A stretch of 59,844 nt of DNA from Candidatus Frackibacter sp. WG13 (GCF_900114655.1 NZ_FOTT01000018.1:1-59844), one strand, 5' to 3'; positions 19,138 through 51,685 are shown, counted from the first letter of the stretch. Notes: a model not told the origin generated them from the letters alone. Translations and numbers: made by a program.

Positions 19138-19500
<363 letters not shown>

Positions 19501-19630: not shown

Positions 19631-21274
19631 ATGTTAAATGAAAAGTTTATTGAGAATAGTGAGCAATGGCTAGACTTAATGCGAATAGTTCAAATTGACC
19701 TTTCTGTCCCCTCAATTATTAAAGAGATTGAAAGATTATTTTTAGATTTAGACCCAGTAATTGCTGGGGGTGTAGTTTCAGATAGCTATCTATTAAATCA
19801 AGAATTGATTAATGAGAGAAAGTTATCAAATCTAGATATATTTATACCTTTAGGCACTGATGATGCTAAAGTAAAAGAAATATTAAATAATAAAGATAAA
19901 GTTAAAAATTTGACAGAAGTAAAAGAAGAAAAGATTGATGCTACTTATTCGGAAGAGTTAGTTAATAAGAGGATGAGCTTTACATATGGTAGTTATAAAT
20001 GTAATTTATTATTTTGTAATAATAGAAAGACTAAAATTTGGGATATAGATATAACCCTGCATCAATTTATGTATTTAGGAGGAAAGGTCTATGCTACTAA
20101 ATTAGCAATTGCTGATATTAGGGCGAAGTTGTTAAGAATCTTGAATCCAGTTAATGGGATTAAAGCTTGGAAAAGAGTTATTAGAGTTAAAGAAGAATAT
20201 GAGTTTAATATTGAAGAAGAAGGTGCGAAGTTACTATTTGATTATATTAGGTGGCGTAAAGAAAATTTTACATCTAAAAGTAAATTGAAAGAGTATTATT
20301 ACCGACTAATTAGTCAAAAGAAAACTTATGGTAGAAGTCTAATAACTTACCTATTACTTAATAATAATTATCAGAATGATTATTTCATTGATTTACTTGG
20401 TTCTTATCAGGTTATGTATGATTCAAATCTAAATTACGAAAGATTTATAAATAAAATCAAAGATTTAAAGTTTAAGATTAATACTGAAATTAAAGATAGA
20501 CAAGAAGTTCTAGATGAGAAAGATAATGAAGCAAATATAGATTTAATGTCCAAAACAGAGTATAAACGCACGATAACTATATTAGAACAAGTGAGTCAAT
20601 TAGAATTTAAAGAATTTTTAGAAGGGCGGGTTAATAAAAACAGATTAAAAGACTGTTATAAATGGCATTCTCCTAAGATAGGTAAGATCTTAGAGAATTT
20701 AAAGAAGTTTATTGATAAGTTAAATTTAAGATACTATCAGAATTACGCTTTAAATCTATGTGACCAACTCTTGAAATTATTCAATACTAGAGGACCCAAT
20801 AATTTAGAGTTTAAAATTGTCATTTCTCAAGAAGCCAAAGACTTATTAGCTATATCCACTGACCAAAGCTGGACTAGTTGTTTAGAGTTACCCAAACCTG
20901 ATAGTCAGCGAGTTAGTGCAGCAAGGATAGCAGCAAATTTACAACCTAATACTTTAGTAGTCTACATAACTGAAGTTAATGGGCAGGAATGGTTAGGAAG
21001 GATATTAATTAGATTATTGAGAGATGGCAGCTTAAGTTTAGAAAAATATTATGGTGAACCGGTTTTAAAAGAAGTATTAATTGCTAAATTAGAAGAAATT
21101 ATTCTAGATAATGGCTATCAACTTAAAAAGGGGATGAATGGTAAGAGTTATAATTTTATTGAATGGCAGCCATACTCTGACCAAGGAAGAATAAAAAAAT
21201 TAGAATCAGAGATATATACAGAGTATTATATTGATTATTCATTACCGTCAGTTATTAAGAAGTTAGATAAATAA
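19631..21274 (+). CDS. Unrecognised protein with nucleotidyltransferase-like N-terminus
   Basis: I do not recognise a named family. Residues about 35-75 (VIAGGVVSDSYLL ... NLDIFIP) look like the GG...D-x-D core of polymerase-beta-fold nucleotidyltransferases, with Asn where the first metal Asp is usual. WDIDITLHQFMYLGGKVYAT (about 137-156) resembles the strand and helix after that core in phage-type NTases. The middle is helical and Lys-rich. The C-terminus (about 400-547) has SWTSCLELP, ARIAANLQPNTLVVYI and a YYGEP block, reminiscent of a domain I associate with phage proteins. ATG 19631 follows AGAGGGTGA. It lies between rnpB and pheA, with composition like its neighbours. Confidence 0.8.
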   Translation: MLNEKFIENSEQWLDLMRIVQIDLSVPSIIKEIERLFLDLDPVIAGGVVSDSYLLNQELINERKLSNLDIFIPLGTDDAKVKEILNNKDKVKNLTEVKEEKIDATYSEELVNKRMSFTYGSYKCNLLFCNNRKTKIWDIDITLHQFMYLGGKVYATKLAIADIRAKLLRILNPVNGIKAWKRVIRVKEEYEFNIEEEGAKLLFDYIRWRKENFTSKSKLKEYYYRLISQKKTYGRSLITYLLLNNNYQNDYFIDLLGSYQVMYDSNLNYERFINKIKDLKFKINTEIKDRQEVLDEKDNEANIDLMSKTEYKRTITILEQVSQLEFKEFLEGRVNKNRLKDCYKWHSPKIGKILENLKKFIDKLNLRYYQNYALNLCDQLLKLFNTRGPNNLEFKIVISQEAKDLLAISTDQSWTSCLELPKPDSQRVSAARIAANLQPNTLVVYITEVNGQEWLGRILIRLLRDGSLSLEKYYGEPVLKEVLIAKLEEIILDNGYQLKKGMNGKSYNFIEWQPYSDQGRIKKLESEIYTEYYIDYSLPSVIKKLDK

Positions 21275-33407: not shown

Positions 33408-33461
33408 CAATACCTATGTGTTTGTGATATAATGTAATTAAGTTAAAGGGAGGTGTCAATG

Positions 33462-34691
33462 ATGGATAAAACTTATATACTACCTATTGAACAACAAGAT
33501 TTAGCACATAGATTATCTAGGTTAAGTGGTCGTATATACTCTAAAACTGTATCAACTACCTTTAAGTTAAAGCAATCTAAAGATATATGGTTATCTAAAA
33601 ACGATATGGAGAAATTAATTAAATTATATGCTAGCGAGTTTGGAATGCACTCACAATCTAAACAAGGTTCGGTACAACAATACTATACTAATCTTAAATC
33701 TTTCTTTAAATCTATGAATAAAGCAGGTAATCCCAAACCACCATATCGGACTAGAAAGTTTAATAAAGTAATCTATAAAAAGTCTGCTATTAAATTAAAA
33801 GATAATGGTATATTAAGGTTATCTAATGGTAGAGGTGCAATTCCATTAAAGGTTAAAACTTCTAGTTTAAATCAGAGACCTAAATATGCTGAAATAATCT
33901 ATCATCATCAAGAAAATAAATACAAACTCCATATTGTAGTTGATGTTGAAAATAAACAAATAGATTATAATACTAATAAAACTTTATCTATTGACCTCGG
34001 TCAAATTCATCCTATGGTAACTTTTGATGGAGAACAGAGTTTAATTTATAATGGTGGAAAACTCAACTCTTTTATTAGATTTAGGAATAAAGAGTTAGCT
34101 AAATTGCAAACTAAAATCTCTAAGTGTCAAAAATTCTCTAATCGTTGGAAGAGACTCAATCGTGGTAAAAAGAAACTTATGCTTAAAAGTAGAAATAAGA
34201 TTAATGACCTATTGCAAAAATATAGCAGTCATCTTATTTCATACTGTATTAAGAATAAAGTTTCTATTATTGTGATTGGTGATATTAAAGGTATTAGAGA
34301 AAAGATCAATTTTGGCACTAAAACTAATCAAAGCTTGCACCAATGGGTATATAAGCAATTAACAGATATGCTTGAATATAAAGCAAAATCAGTAGGAATA
34401 GAAGTTGACTATCAAGAAGAATCTTATACAAGTCAAACCTGCCCTAAATGTAATAAAAGACATAAACCTACTAATAGAAATTATATCTGTCAATGTGGTT
34501 TTGAATATCATAGAGATAGCATTGGTGCTATTAACATTTATAAAAAGTATACTAGGGGCAATTTAGATAAGTCCTCTAGGTTAGAAGGCGAATTGACCTC
34601 GCCCTATGGAGTAAGATATGATTCTAACTCCATTAGTTGCCAAGTTGAATGGAACTCTAGACCGTTTAGTAGTCAGGGAGTTTCAGCGTAA
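33462..34691 (+). CDS. tnpB: TnpB, RNA-guided RuvC nuclease of IS605-type element
   Basis: TnpB proteins use an omega RNA from the element's right end to cut DNA beside a target motif, favouring element retention. From ATG 33462 (8 bases after AAAGGGAGG) the product is 409 aa. RuvC-I has Asp178 in SIDLGQ and RuvC-III has Asp352 in YHRDSIGAINIY. At RuvC-II the sequence is IVIGDIKGIRE: Gly273 stands where many TnpBs have Glu. E319/E320 in YQEESYTSQTCPKC may supply an alternative carboxylate, as reported for some TnpB/Fanzor lineages. The zinc finger is CPKC ... CQC. No frameshift is seen. Confidence 0.92.
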   Translation: MDKTYILPIEQQDLAHRLSRLSGRIYSKTVSTTFKLKQSKDIWLSKNDMEKLIKLYASEFGMHSQSKQGSVQQYYTNLKSFFKSMNKAGNPKPPYRTRKFNKVIYKKSAIKLKDNGILRLSNGRGAIPLKVKTSSLNQRPKYAEIIYHHQENKYKLHIVVDVENKQIDYNTNKTLSIDLGQIHPMVTFDGEQSLIYNGGKLNSFIRFRNKELAKLQTKISKCQKFSNRWKRLNRGKKKLMLKSRNKINDLLQKYSSHLISYCIKNKVSIIVIGDIKGIREKINFGTKTNQSLHQWVYKQLTDMLEYKAKSVGIEVDYQEESYTSQTCPKCNKRHKPTNRNYICQCGFEYHRDSIGAINIYKKYTRGNLDKSSRLEGELTSPYGVRYDSNSISCQVEWNSRPFSSQGVSA

Positions 34692-37381: not shown

Positions 37382-37486
37382 TGGGAGAAGAATCAAATAA
37401 GCAGGAAGATTGATATAAATCTAGAATAATAAAAGTGTTTGAGCAAGAATATTTTTAAAGCTTGTAGAATTTGGAGGCTATAAAAG

Positions 37487-40400
37487 GTGATATTGGATAA
37501 AAAATGGCAACTACCTAAACAAAAAGAAGAACTTAGTAAAAATTTAAGTGAAAGACTTAATTTATCGAAGGTTATGGCAGAAATTTTAGTAAATCGTGGC
37601 TTGCAAACTGAGGAAGAGATTGAAGAGTTCTTGCATGTTGATTTAAATGACCTTCATTCTCCTTTTTTATTTAGAGGGATGAAAGAGGCGGTAGAAAGAA
37701 TTTTACAGGCTATCTCTTTTGAAGAAACGATTGCTATTTATGGAGATTATGATGTAGATGGAATTACTAGTACTAGTTTGTTGATTAACTTCTTTAGGAG
37801 ATTAAATGCTGAACCTAAGCACCATATTCCTAATCGGATAGAAGAAGGTTATGGTCTCAATAAAGGGGCAATTAAAGAGCTAGCAGACCAAGGGGTAGAA
37901 CTTTTAATTACTGTTGACTGTGGAATTAGTGATTATGATGAAGTTGAATATGCTAACGAATTAGGAATTGATGTGATTATTACTGATCATCATGAAGTAC
38001 CCGATCAAGTTCCTAATGCCAAAGCAGTAATTAATGCTAAGCAGGATGACTGTAACTATCCGTTTCCTGAATTATGTGGGGTAGGAGTTGCTTTTAAGTT
38101 AATTCATGGACTAGCTATTATGGAGCATACTCTACAAGTAGATGAAGTTATTAATGAATATCTAGATTTGGTTACTTTAGGAACTATAGCAGATATTGTG
38201 CCTTTACAAGGAGAGAATAGAATTATTGTTAAGCATGGCTTAGATTTATTAAGAAACCCTAATAATCTAGGAGTAGAAGCGTTAATTGAAGTTTCAGATT
38301 TAGAAGGCAAAGAAATTAGTACTGGACGTGTTGGCTATATCTTAGCGCCTAAGATTAATGCTGCTGGCCGGATTGGGGACCCTGATTTAGCCTTGAGTTT
38401 ATTGATAACAGAAAGACCTTCGGAGGCTAGAGAAGTTGCTCAGAAGTTAGATGAATTGAATCGTGAGCGAAAAGATATTCAAGATAAGATTTTGCATGAA
38501 GCGGAATTGATGGTTGAAGGAATTGATTTAGATAAAACTAAAGTATTAGTCTTAGCATCTGAAGGATGGCATTCAGGAATTGTAGGGATAGTTGCTTCTG
38601 AAATTGTTGAAAAGTATTACCGACCGACAATTATGATTGCTATTGAAGAAGATGGGATTGGGAAAGGTTCTGCTCGCAGTATAAAAGGATTAAATATTTA
38701 CCAGGCAATAAAGAATTCAAAAGATCTATTACCTAATTATGGCGGGCATGAACAGGCAGCTGGATTAAGTATTGCTCAAGAAGATATTGTTCAATTTAGA
38801 AAAGAAATTAATCAATATGCTGAAGAAGCTCTAACTGAAGAAGACTTAGTACCGAAACTTAGACTAGATGCAGAGGTAGAATTATCAGATTTAGATATGG
38901 ATTTAGTTGAAGAAATAAACTCCTTAGCTCCATTTGGTCTAAAGAATCCGCGACCTAAACTAGCAATTAAGGATGTGAATGTAGCTAACTTTAGAATAGT
39001 AGGCAATTCTAAAAAGCATCTAAAGTTAATGGTTAGTGATGATAAGGATAATAAGTTAGACTGCATAGGTTTTAATTTAGCTGACTTTCGTGAGAAATTG
39101 ATTACCCAAAGAGAAGGAATAGCTATCGCAGGCTCTTTAGAGATTAATGAATGGAAAGGTAATAAAAAAATACAACTAAATTTGCGGGATATAAATCTTC
39201 CAGAGGTATCTTTTGTCGATAGACTATTTGCTAGATCTGATGAGATTATTGCTAATGATTATTATCGTGGTATTGGAGATGCTGATAAATTTTATACTAA
39301 AGTAGTAGGAGTAACCTTTGAAAATCGGCAAGAGATAATTACAGAACTAAGGGCTGGTGAAAAATTAAAGTTAGTTAGAGAGCCAGATAATGAATATGAT
39401 GAATCGGCAATAAAAGTAGAGAATAATGCTGGAAAGCAGATTGGTTATTTAAATGCTAATTTAGCCCAGTATTTAGCGCCATATTTAGATTTAGGATTCT
39501 ATTATCAAGTAAACGTTTCTGAAGTTACCGGTGGAGGAGAACAGAACTTAGGAGTCAATATCTTTATTCGCAAAGAAGGATGTGAAGCCGGAGAGGTTGA
39601 AGTTAACACTAGAGCCCAAAGAGCTAGATTGCAAAGTTTAAGTCAAGCCGAAATATTAGAGGAGATACGGAGTTCGTTAATTGGAGAATACGACTTTAGA
39701 CCTAAACAGCAAGAAGCTCTAAATAGCCTATTTAATAAGAAGAATACATTGGCTATCTTTGGTACAGGACGAGGCAAATCAGCTATTTTTCAAAGTTTTG
39801 CAGCCTTGAAAGCCTTAGATCAAGGTGAAATAACTATTGTATTATATCCATTACGAGCCTTGGTCAATGATCAGTTTGAAATTTTACAGAACAAATTAAA
39901 TCCTTTAGGTTTGCAAGTTTATAAAGCAAATGGCTCATTAAGTGTTAGTGAGAGAGAAGAGTTAATGACTGCTCTACAACAAGGAGATTTAGATATCTTA
40001 TTAACAACTCCCGAATTTCTTGAATATCATTTAGATAAATTTCTAAACTTAAGAGAAGAGATAGGGTTTTTAGTTGTTGATGAAAGCCATCATATTGGTT
40101 TAGCTACTAATTCTTTTCGGTCAACTTATAAGCGTTTAGGAAGATTGATTACAAAATTAGATGATCCGTTAACATTAGCAGTTACAGCAACTGCTAATGA
40201 TCAAGTTGCACAAGAGATTAGTCAAACTTTATCTATTGATCAAATTATAGTTGATCCTCATATCCGTAGTAACTTAAAGATAGTCGATCAAAGAAATTGT
40301 AATGACAAAGATAGTTATCTGCGGAACTTATTAAAAAGTGGTGAAAAGAGCATTATATATGTAAATAGTAGAGAAAAGAGTGTGGAAATTGCTAGTAAAT

Positions 40401-41119
40401 TAAGAGAAGAAATACCGGCATTAGCTGACAAAATAGCCTTTTATAATGCTGGTTTAACCAATAAAGAGCGTAATACAGTAGAAAATATGTTTAGAAATGG
40501 AGAATTAAAGATAATAGTTTCGACTAGTGCTTTTGGTGAAGGAATAAATATTCCTGATATTCGTAATGTTATCTTATATCATCTTAATTTCAACCTTACT
40601 GAATTTAATCAACAGAGTGGTCGAGTTGGTAGAGATGGTGAAGAAGCTAAAGTTCATCTTTTGTTTGAAGATAGAGATGTAAGAATTAATGAATTTATCT
40701 TAGATAGTATGGCACCTGAACGAGATATATTAGCTGAACTTTATCGAGTATTAAAGATGGTAGAAGATGATGATCAAGAGGTTAGACTAACTAATCAGCA
40801 ATTAGCTGATGAGGTAAGTAAATTAGTTAAACATAAAGTTAGAGATAATACTATTTCTGCCGGTTTAGGGATTTTAGAAGAACTAAACCTATTAACTAGG
40901 ATTCAGGAGGTAGGAAAGAGAATAATTCAATTAGAACAAGCTCCTGCTGATAAATTAGATTTAAATGATTCATTAAGATATCAAGAAGGGCAGGAAGATA
41001 AAGATGCTTTCAAGAAATTTAAAAAGATGGCCCTCAATGAATCGGCTGAAAAGTTATTATCATTAATTAATAAACCTATTTATCCAACAAAATTAGTAAA
41101 AATTAAGGAGGAAGATTAA
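37487..41119 (+). CDS. recJ: RecJ exonuclease fused to HIRAN domain and RecQ-like helicase
   Basis: RecJ degrades single-stranded DNA 5' to 3' in repair. Residues about 1-575 are RecJ: DHH motif I IYGDYDVDGITS (84-95), the DHH motif TDHHEVPD, and DHHA1 GGHEQAAGLS. Then comes a HIRAN domain (about 600-705) with KLVREPDNEYDESAIKVE and QIGYLNANLA. The C-terminal half is an SF2 helicase: Walker A FGTGRGKSA (about 757-765), DESHH (about 864), motif VI QQSGRVGRDG (about 1042). At 1210 aa it is over 400 residues longer than Bacillus RecJ, with one uninterrupted frame. Start GTG 37487 or TTG 37493. It sits in the usual secDF-recJ-apt-relA order. Confidence 0.93.
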   Translation: MILDKKWQLPKQKEELSKNLSERLNLSKVMAEILVNRGLQTEEEIEEFLHVDLNDLHSPFLFRGMKEAVERILQAISFEETIAIYGDYDVDGITSTSLLINFFRRLNAEPKHHIPNRIEEGYGLNKGAIKELADQGVELLITVDCGISDYDEVEYANELGIDVIITDHHEVPDQVPNAKAVINAKQDDCNYPFPELCGVGVAFKLIHGLAIMEHTLQVDEVINEYLDLVTLGTIADIVPLQGENRIIVKHGLDLLRNPNNLGVEALIEVSDLEGKEISTGRVGYILAPKINAAGRIGDPDLALSLLITERPSEAREVAQKLDELNRERKDIQDKILHEAELMVEGIDLDKTKVLVLASEGWHSGIVGIVASEIVEKYYRPTIMIAIEEDGIGKGSARSIKGLNIYQAIKNSKDLLPNYGGHEQAAGLSIAQEDIVQFRKEINQYAEEALTEEDLVPKLRLDAEVELSDLDMDLVEEINSLAPFGLKNPRPKLAIKDVNVANFRIVGNSKKHLKLMVSDDKDNKLDCIGFNLADFREKLITQREGIAIAGSLEINEWKGNKKIQLNLRDINLPEVSFVDRLFARSDEIIANDYYRGIGDADKFYTKVVGVTFENRQEIITELRAGEKLKLVREPDNEYDESAIKVENNAGKQIGYLNANLAQYLAPYLDLGFYYQVNVSEVTGGGEQNLGVNIFIRKEGCEAGEVEVNTRAQRARLQSLSQAEILEEIRSSLIGEYDFRPKQQEALNSLFNKKNTLAIFGTGRGKSAIFQSFAALKALDQGEITIVLYPLRALVNDQFEILQNKLNPLGLQVYKANGSLSVSEREELMTALQQGDLDILLTTPEFLEYHLDKFLNLREEIGFLVVDESHHIGLATNSFRSTYKRLGRLITKLDDPLTLAVTATANDQVAQEISQTLSIDQIIVDPHIRSNLKIVDQRNCNDKDSYLRNLLKSGEKSIIYVNSREKSVEIASKLREEIPALADKIAFYNAGLTNKERNTVENMFRNGELKIIVSTSAFGEGINIPDIRNVILYHLNFNLTEFNQQSGRVGRDGEEAKVHLLFEDRDVRINEFILDSMAPERDILAELYRVLKMVEDDDQEVRLTNQQLADEVSKLVKHKVRDNTISAGLGILEELNLLTRIQEVGKRIIQLEQAPADKLDLNDSLRYQEGQEDKDAFKKFKKMALNESAEKLLSLINKPIYPTKLVKIKEED

Positions 41120-41121
41120 AA

Positions 41122-41634
41122 GTGGATTTAAATGAAAAGATAAGAGTGATTAAGGACTTTCCAGAGGAAGGAATTGAATTTAAGGATATTACTACCTTAT
41201 TAAAGGACCCTGAGGCTTATCAATATGCAATTCAACAATTTGTAGAACAGTATAAAGATATGGAAATAGATGTAATTGTCGGTATTGAGGCAAGAGGATT
41301 CTTGGTAGGGGCGCCTTTAGCTTTAGAATTAGACAAGAGCTTTGTGCCAGCAAGAAAAGAGGGCAAGTTACCGGCAGAAGTAGCTAGAGCTGAATATGAT
41401 TTAGAGTATGGAAGTAATGTGCTTGAGATTCATAGGGATGCCGTTGAAGAAGGGCAGAAGGTGTTGATTATAGATGATCTGTTAGCTACAGGAGGTACTG
41501 TAAAGGCAACTGCTGAGTTAATTGAAGAAATCGGTGGTGAAGTAGTAGGATTAGGTTTTTTATTAGAATTATCTTTCTTAAAGGGAAGAGAAAAATTGCA
41601 GGATTATGATTTATATACTATAATTAGAGAATAA
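41122..41634 (+). CDS. apt: Adenine phosphoribosyltransferase
   Basis: This purine-salvage enzyme joins adenine and PRPP to form AMP. It is 170 aa, the family length. The PRPP loop VLIIDDLLATGGT (about 115-127) and VDVIVGIEARGFLVGAP (from IDVIVG, about 50-66) are diagnostic. GTG 41122 lies 2 bases after the recJ stop, with AAGGAGGA upstream. The apt-relA order is widely conserved and links salvage to (p)ppGpp metabolism. Confidence 0.96.
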   Translation: MDLNEKIRVIKDFPEEGIEFKDITTLLKDPEAYQYAIQQFVEQYKDMEIDVIVGIEARGFLVGAPLALELDKSFVPARKEGKLPAEVARAEYDLEYGSNVLEIHRDAVEEGQKVLIIDDLLATGGTVKATAELIEEIGGEVVGLGFLLELSFLKGREKLQDYDLYTIIRE

Positions 41635-51477: not shown

Positions 51478-51685
51478 AGTTAAAAAACAGCAAAAACCAA
51501 TCTTGTTCTGCCGTGTACGTGGGGATATTATATTTTGCCCAACACCAACACACAGGGAGCCTGGACTCCATCTGTGGCGTATATGCCTCCATAGAGTGGA
51601 CATACAAATCAGGTGGGAGGGCACCCACTTTGTAGACAGGGAGCAAAATCATAAGTCCATACGGCATGGTGGGACATTCTATTTT
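51478..51685 (+). ncRNA. ssrS: 6S RNA (RNA polymerase regulator)
   Basis: About 200 nt with no sensible reading frame and higher G+C than its flanks folds as a long rod. A closing stem pairs TGTTCTGCCGTGTA (about 51509) with TACGGCATGGTGGGACA (about 51659), and the interior is interrupted (CTCCATCTGTGG, GTGGGAGGGCACCCAC). 6S RNA mimics an open promoter and sequesters the sigma-A holoenzyme. Context supports the call: Bacillus 6S-1 lies beside aspS and near rarA, and proteobacterial 6S lies beside the 5-formyl-THF ligase gene. Both neighbours are here. Ends are approximate. Confidence 0.8.

Follow-up and report, generated by a model that had tools for sequence, protein, structure and literature searches.

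A RecJ nuclease joined to a HIRAN domain and a RecQ-like helicase in one polypeptide, and the apparent descent of the PF10141 domain from its decayed helicase

The recJ gene of Candidatus Frackibacter sp. WG13 (GCF_900114655.1) lies in a 59,844-nucleotide stretch (NZ_FOTT01000018.1:1-59844, hereafter the window) and encodes a RecJ nuclease, a HIRAN domain and a RecQ-like helicase of superfamily 2 (SF2) in a single frame. This fusion is a real, old and under-described variant of RecJ. It is probably a one-polypeptide enzyme for the resection of 5' ends in which all three parts are intact, and whose helicase has in relatives decayed towards the domain known as PF10141. The physical coupling of RecQ and RecJ, a textbook pair, has been unclear. 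A search of open-access papers, with subscription journals outside its reach, turned up no description of the fusion and none of how PF10141 arose.

Domain organisation of the fusion protein

The open reading frame (ORF; 37487-41119, plus strand) has zero internal stops over its 1210 amino acids (aa), and all six Pfam domains of the fusion (DHH, DHHA1, RecJ_OB, HIRAN, DEAD and Helicase_C) exceed their curated cut-offs (Table 1). Together with the RecJ model TIGR00644 and the catalytic motifs, this bears out the initial annotation, which had read from the DNA a full RecJ, then HIRAN, then a complete SF2 helicase within one frame. The nuclease half is RecJ by every test made and is predicted to act as a 5'-3' exonuclease on single-stranded DNA (ssDNA). 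It scores 621 bits with the NCBIfam RecJ equivalog TIGR00644 against a cut-off of 397, and contains the DHH-nuclease motifs DYDVDG, VDCG and DHH. Like bacterial RecJ proteins of known structure (8y30, Deinococcus radiodurans 5f54 and Thermus thermophilus 2zxo; Z of 42-55 in structural comparison by VIA) it has the full DHH-DHHA1-OB core with its catalytic motifs, but continues beyond the OB domain with a helicase region of ~640 aa that looks active. In other RecJ proteins this position holds nothing (Escherichia coli), a C-terminal domain that binds single-stranded DNA-binding protein (SSB; Deinococcus) or PF10141 (Bacillus, Staphylococcus).

The helicase half is nearest to the RecQ helicases (bacterial RecQ, BLM, WRN and RECQL5) by both sequence and fold. 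It shares with them the SF2 core, Walker A, DExH and motif VI. A sequence reminiscent of motif 0 (FRPKQQEAL) is also present, with Q alone invariant among the positions checked. An AlphaFold2 (AF2) model of the fusion (predicted local distance difference test, pLDDT, 89.7) has BLM, WRN and D. radiodurans RecQ as its nearest helicase folds, with Z of ~28. However, the fusion differs from RecQ proper in that the zinc cysteines are absent (Cys938 stands alone within aa 700-1210), the aromatic-rich loop has no QW, and Pfam gave no match to RQC or HRDC in the fusion protein. Both NCBIfam RecQ models score below their cut-offs (TIGR00614, 206.7 against 219.8; TIGR01389, 221 against 640), and in a tree the fusion helicases form their own clade apart from RecQ. 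The helicase is therefore named RecQ-like because it misses the RecQ cut-offs, the zinc cysteines, RQC and HRDC; the initial annotation as an SF2, RecQ-like helicase stands with this qualification. The C-terminal domain is winged-helix-like in a reading of the AF2 secondary structure, and a gappy alignment with the RQC winged helix (probability 88.8) gives no firm assignment to RQC.

The HIRAN domain matches the structures of HLTF HIRAN, a domain that prefers 3' ends, with an E-value of 8.5e-6. In HLTF a dinucleotide is held between Y72 and Y93 (PMC4666394). The equivalent of Y72, which was placed by eye, is Phe (F602) in 56/56 full-length fusions, and that of Y93 is Tyr, His or Phe in 51/56.

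The same 56 fusions show no variation at any DHH or SF2 catalytic position checked, namely D87, D89, D91, D144, D167, H168, H169 and D236 in the nuclease and K764, D865, E866, H868, Q1042, R1046 and R1049 in the helicase, nor at F602, N635 and D638 of HIRAN. The Walker A sequence of the locus L144, which does not count as dead, is GTSRGKS.

Table 1. The fusion gene, its domains and adjoining features (coordinates in the window)
Feature	Residues	Position	Strand	Basis or remark
GGAGG, likely ribosome-binding site of the fusion gene		37473..37477	+	sequence reading
recJ-HIRAN-helicase fusion gene		37487..41119	+	1210 aa, GTG start, TAA stop, ends 2 nt before apt
RecJ DHH domain	81-233	37727..38185	+	PF01368, 1.8e-31; DYDVDG aa 87-92, DHH aa 167-169
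DHHA1 domain	351-446	38537..38824	+	PF02272
RecJ OB domain	460-568	38864..39190	+	PF17768, 3.7e-32
HIRAN domain	602-672	39290..39502	+	PF08797, 2.2e-15, 56.7 bits against cut-off 24.7
Helicase lobe 1 (DEAD)	738-909	39698..40213	+	PF00270, 6.9e-25; Walker A GTGRGKS aa 759-765, DESH aa 865-868
Helicase lobe 2 (Helicase_C)	941-1051	40307..40639	+	PF00271, 4.1e-29; motif VI QQSGRVGRDG aa 1042-1051
C-terminal helical domain	~1076-1200	40712..41086	+	domain hidden Markov model (HMM) map, AF2 secondary structure, hhalign, VIA against 8y30
apt (adenine phosphoribosyltransferase-like), probable operon partner		41122..41634	+	

Distribution and selection

The sampled genomes indicate that the fusion is old and widespread across Bacillota and Actinomycetota. 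Scanning 84,980 named species turned up 495 candidate stretches, and the best 80 were inspected. In 74 of these 80, RecJ is in the same frame; of the other six, three are cut by the contig end and three encode genuine stand-alone HIRAN-helicases. Among the titles are Orenia, Thermincola, Anaerospora, many Peptococcaceae and, within Actinomycetota, Coriobacteriia, Atopobiaceae and Olsenella. Of 398 sampled Bacillota genomes, 26 or more have the full fusion. It is present in four genomes of the window's family (its own counted) and, within a sister family in that order, in three genomes of a single genus; the RecJ core of one of the sister-family fusions is identical to that of Orenia metallireducens (L121). 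The architecture is no speciality of Halanaerobiales, and its age and breadth went unnoticed in the initial annotation. No relative was found in viral contigs.

Among 149 Actinomycetota genomes six have the full fusion and ~10 a form without HIRAN. The six examples of the latter examined in full (L221-L226; 1122-1196 aa) have a linker of ~50 aa and intact helicase motifs. Other long RecJ proteins (L208, L229, L231 and L232; ~980-1150 aa) owe their extra length to long N-terminal or other extensions in which no helicase is recognisable, and two RecQ-like helicases lie within open frames of ~1600 aa (G444:C11:205520-206689 and G455:C47:51842-52954). Stand-alone HIRAN-RecQ-like helicases are found at L190 and L193 (both Eremiobacterota) and L198, in genomes without a RecJ match; they fall outside all fused helicases in the tree and are possibly the form that preceded the fusion.

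The ratio of nonsynonymous to synonymous substitution rates (dN/dS) between close intact pairs is 0.07-0.13 for the half after the OB domain, which is not above the 0.09-0.18 of the RecJ half. Such strict selection, together with invariant catalytic residues wherever the helicase motifs survive, indicates that helicase activity itself is selected. The intact fusion is the only RecJ in 47/47 genomes that carry one. Other RecQ-type helicases went undetected in 13/25 genomes that carry an intact fusion, a count that is provisional because several are metagenome-assembled genomes. The notion that the fusion replaces AddAB was rejected, as AddA-type proteins coexist with it in most Bacillota genomes tested.

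Decay of the helicase and the origin of PF10141

Trees and motif content indicate that the helicase of the fusion has decayed repeatedly among relatives, which the initial annotation missed, as it did the link to PF10141. In the window's own family one member (L013) has a RecJ core that is 59-63% identical to those of intact members and a helicase half that is 33% identical and is devoid of Walker A, DExH and motif VI. A shortened protein of 857 aa (L019) has lost HIRAN and lobe 1, and its core is 61% identical to that of the intact L010. Genome G014 encodes a full-length fused helicase with ruined motifs (L036, 1715-4963) and, elsewhere in the genome, a separate and intact HIRAN-helicase (L037, 6343-8286) which clusters with L036 in the tree. 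It sits with decayed fused helicases from its own family, so L037 seems to be a copy that left the fusion.

HMMs of the single domains, derived from intact fusions, reveal a graded series that runs from intact to full-size but dead, to shortened, and finally to lobe 2 with the C-terminal domain alone; across 139 Bacillota genomes the length of the RecJ open frames is continuous from ~570 to 1270 aa. The nuclease motifs are intact in every decayed form within the alignment. The dead halves have dN/dS of 0.20-0.37 and are therefore under purifying selection, but a weaker one than the adjoining nuclease half. In a RecJ-core tree rooted with a paralogue the intact fusions are widely spread and include early branches, and the intact or decayed state changes ~9-11 times, a count that carries no direction. 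Reduction would be the natural direction because the intermediates are dead in their motifs and yet full-length. The helicase and RecJ-core trees broadly agree. Decayed helicases were placed in the tree singly, since joint placement joins them by long branches. In this way L013 falls inside the window's family and, with L014, in the window's order, L016 and L019 group with its sister group, and L018, L205 and L024 gained no firm position.

The end point of this series appears to be PF10141, the tail of Bacillus and Staphylococcus RecJ, which would be a decayed remnant consisting of lobe 2 and the C-terminal domain of the fusion. PF10141 (ssDNA-exonuc_C) has no ATPase or helicase motifs, lobe 1 or HIRAN, and gave no match to the window's protein at E<=1. 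Profile comparison by hhalign nonetheless links the fusion to it by way of the clostridial RecJ tails. Lobe 2 with the C-terminal domain aligns with these tails at probabilities of 99.9 and 99.7, the tails align with those of Bacillus PF10141 at 97.9, and the fusion aligns with Bacillus PF10141 directly at 93.3, against <=1.2 for reversed and column-shuffled controls. One clostridial tail profile (A3), in which PF10141 is matched in 13/18 members, matches residues 556-735 of Staphylococcus aureus RecJ (8y30; E 2.4e-7). The AF2 model of the fusion aligns with 8y30 by VIA over 659 residues that span positions 1-1186 of the model; the root-mean-square deviation of 21 Å is as expected where domains are differently placed, and the alignment is support for the homology and not proof. 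Alignments with other bacterial RecJ structures end by residue 570 and cover <=527 residues. A separate AF2 model of lobe 2 and the C-terminal domain from a single sequence reached a pLDDT of 40 and was not used.

Many relatives encode a second RecJ paralogue of ~770 aa (L038, L040, L042, L044, L046-L048, L053 and L055). Its tail of ~205 aa bears a weak resemblance to the decayed helicase domain (probability 92-93; shuffles <=0.3), so these tails may, tentatively, be helicase relicts as well. A second RecJ was found in 0/45 intact and 18/41 decayed rows, but these amount to 2-3 independent pairs (p 0.25), and it is not claimed that the paralogue arises where the helicase is dead.

Proposed mechanism and alternative explanations

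Resection would begin with HIRAN gripping the 3'-terminal ssDNA of an end, whether blunt or with a 3' overhang, or of a gap or fork. The helicase would then move 3' to 5' along the gripped strand into the duplex, and the displaced 5'-ended strand would enter the RecJ site for digestion in the 5' to 3' direction. The polarity of the helicase, its coupling to the nuclease and the 3'-end role of HIRAN are what we infer for the fusion. As helicase and nuclease would travel in the same direction, the protein should resect ends on which RecJ by itself cannot begin. On its own RecJ digests 5' overhangs, and it depends on RecQ for blunt or 3'-overhang ends, and physical contact between DrRecJ and DrRecQ was not found (PMC4846377), a contact which the covalent link would supply. 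In many Bacillota the helicase would subsequently have died and shrunk to lobe 2 and the C-terminal domain, i.e. PF10141, with the nuclease staying intact.

Several observations weigh against this scheme. Frackibacter WG13 has a separate RecQ of 715 aa and an AddA-like frame of 1214 aa (366 bits, under the cut-off), which means that the fusion is not necessarily the chief enzyme of break resection; the initial annotation was right to place the two enzymes in one chain and overstated the case in calling the machine self-contained. HIRAN, which it had counted as part of the machine, is present in the fusion but dispensable, because the Actinomycetota subtype lacks it and still has an intact helicase. 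The nuclease half is evidently able to do without the helicase, which has been lost in many lineages. The lack of QW in the aromatic-rich loop implies that DNA binding and ATP hydrolysis may be coupled differently from RecQ, and with a predicted template modelling score (pTM) of 0.64 the inter-domain geometry of the AF2 model is not firm.

The main rival, which is unlikely though by no means far-fetched, is an enzyme of forks and gaps and not of breaks. Where a fork has stalled or reversed, HIRAN would see the nascent 3' end, the helicase would unwind nascent DNA, and RecJ would trim the nascent lagging strand or enlarge gaps. AddA-type proteins are the usual break-resection subunits of Firmicutes, and their presence beside the fusion would leave gap and fork work to RecJ; moreover, HLTF HIRAN mediates fork remodelling (PMC4666394). 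However, this explanation overlaps with end resection, and the domain content fits both alike. It is distinctly improbable that the fusion serves for tethering only, with separate substrates for the two activities and the benefit lying in co-expression or in an ATP-driven DNA-binding clamp. The preservation of nuclease motifs next to dead helicases is in line with this, and the purifying selection on decayed halves points to a role that persists without ATPase motifs, but helicase motifs that survive are selected as strictly as the nuclease and their checked catalytic residues do not vary. Re-acquisition, in which a few lineages would have regained the helicase by attachment of an active HIRAN-helicase gene to RecJ, is very improbable. 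Donors of a suitable kind exist in the stand-alone helicases (L037, L190, L193 and L198), but the helicase tree broadly mirrors that of the RecJ core, L037 sides with decayed fused helicases from its own family, and the decayed L013 helicase, when placed alone, lies inside the window's family. An assembly or sequencing artefact is refuted, as nothing was found in its favour and the same continuous, full-length frame recurs at no fewer than 74 independent loci and in several genomes of isolates, including Orenia metallireducens, Anaerospora hongkongensis and Olsenella porci, so that the fusion is genuine, as first read.

Comparison with known systems

The resection enzyme proposed here pairs the same activities as RecQ, RecJ and SSB in the RecF pathway (PMC4846377), but in one chain and not as separate proteins. 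The fork remodellers HLTF and Rad5 also join HIRAN to an SF2 motor; theirs is of the Swi2/Snf2 type whereas that of the fusion is RecQ-like, and the fusion additionally has a nuclease and sometimes no HIRAN. In the end processing of eukaryotes the nuclease DNA2 likewise works with an SF2 helicase, BLM or WRN, but its fold is unrelated to that of RecJ. A Firmicute DinG with a 3'-5' exonuclease domain is another nuclease-SF2 fusion in one chain, but its nuclease fold is unrelated and the polarities of its helicase and nuclease are opposite to those proposed for the fusion (PMC12345164).

Genomic context

The gene had been assigned to the ordinary recJ locus, secDF-recJ-apt-relA, and had seemed to be the main RecJ of the organism. 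The latter holds, since no second RecJ was found in the Frackibacter WG13 genome. The neighbourhood also agrees, with SecD and SecF upstream and the phosphoribosyltransferase (apt) and RelA downstream, except that four genes lie between secF and recJ, encoding in order a TnpB-like protein, a protein without a Pfam match, a DUF456 protein and an ABC1/UbiB kinase. The TnpB-like gene (OrfB_IS605, Cas12f1-like_TNB; 33453-34691, plus strand) has no transposase partner among the neighbouring ORFs. Elsewhere in the window a 547-aa ORF without a Pfam match (19631-21274, plus strand) directly follows RNase P RNA (19145-19497), and Rfam identifies a T-box leader (377-551) and 6S RNA (51502-51679).

Implications

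A natural one-chain RecQ-RecJ makes coupled unwinding and digestion testable with one protein and single point mutants, and close relatives with live and dead helicases provide natural before-and-after pairs. The decay series would readily explain an uncharacterised domain of Bacillus subtilis and S. aureus RecJ. Annotation pipelines likely label all of these proteins as RecJ and would thereby hide a helicase that looks to be the sole RecQ-type enzyme in about half of the genomes tested.

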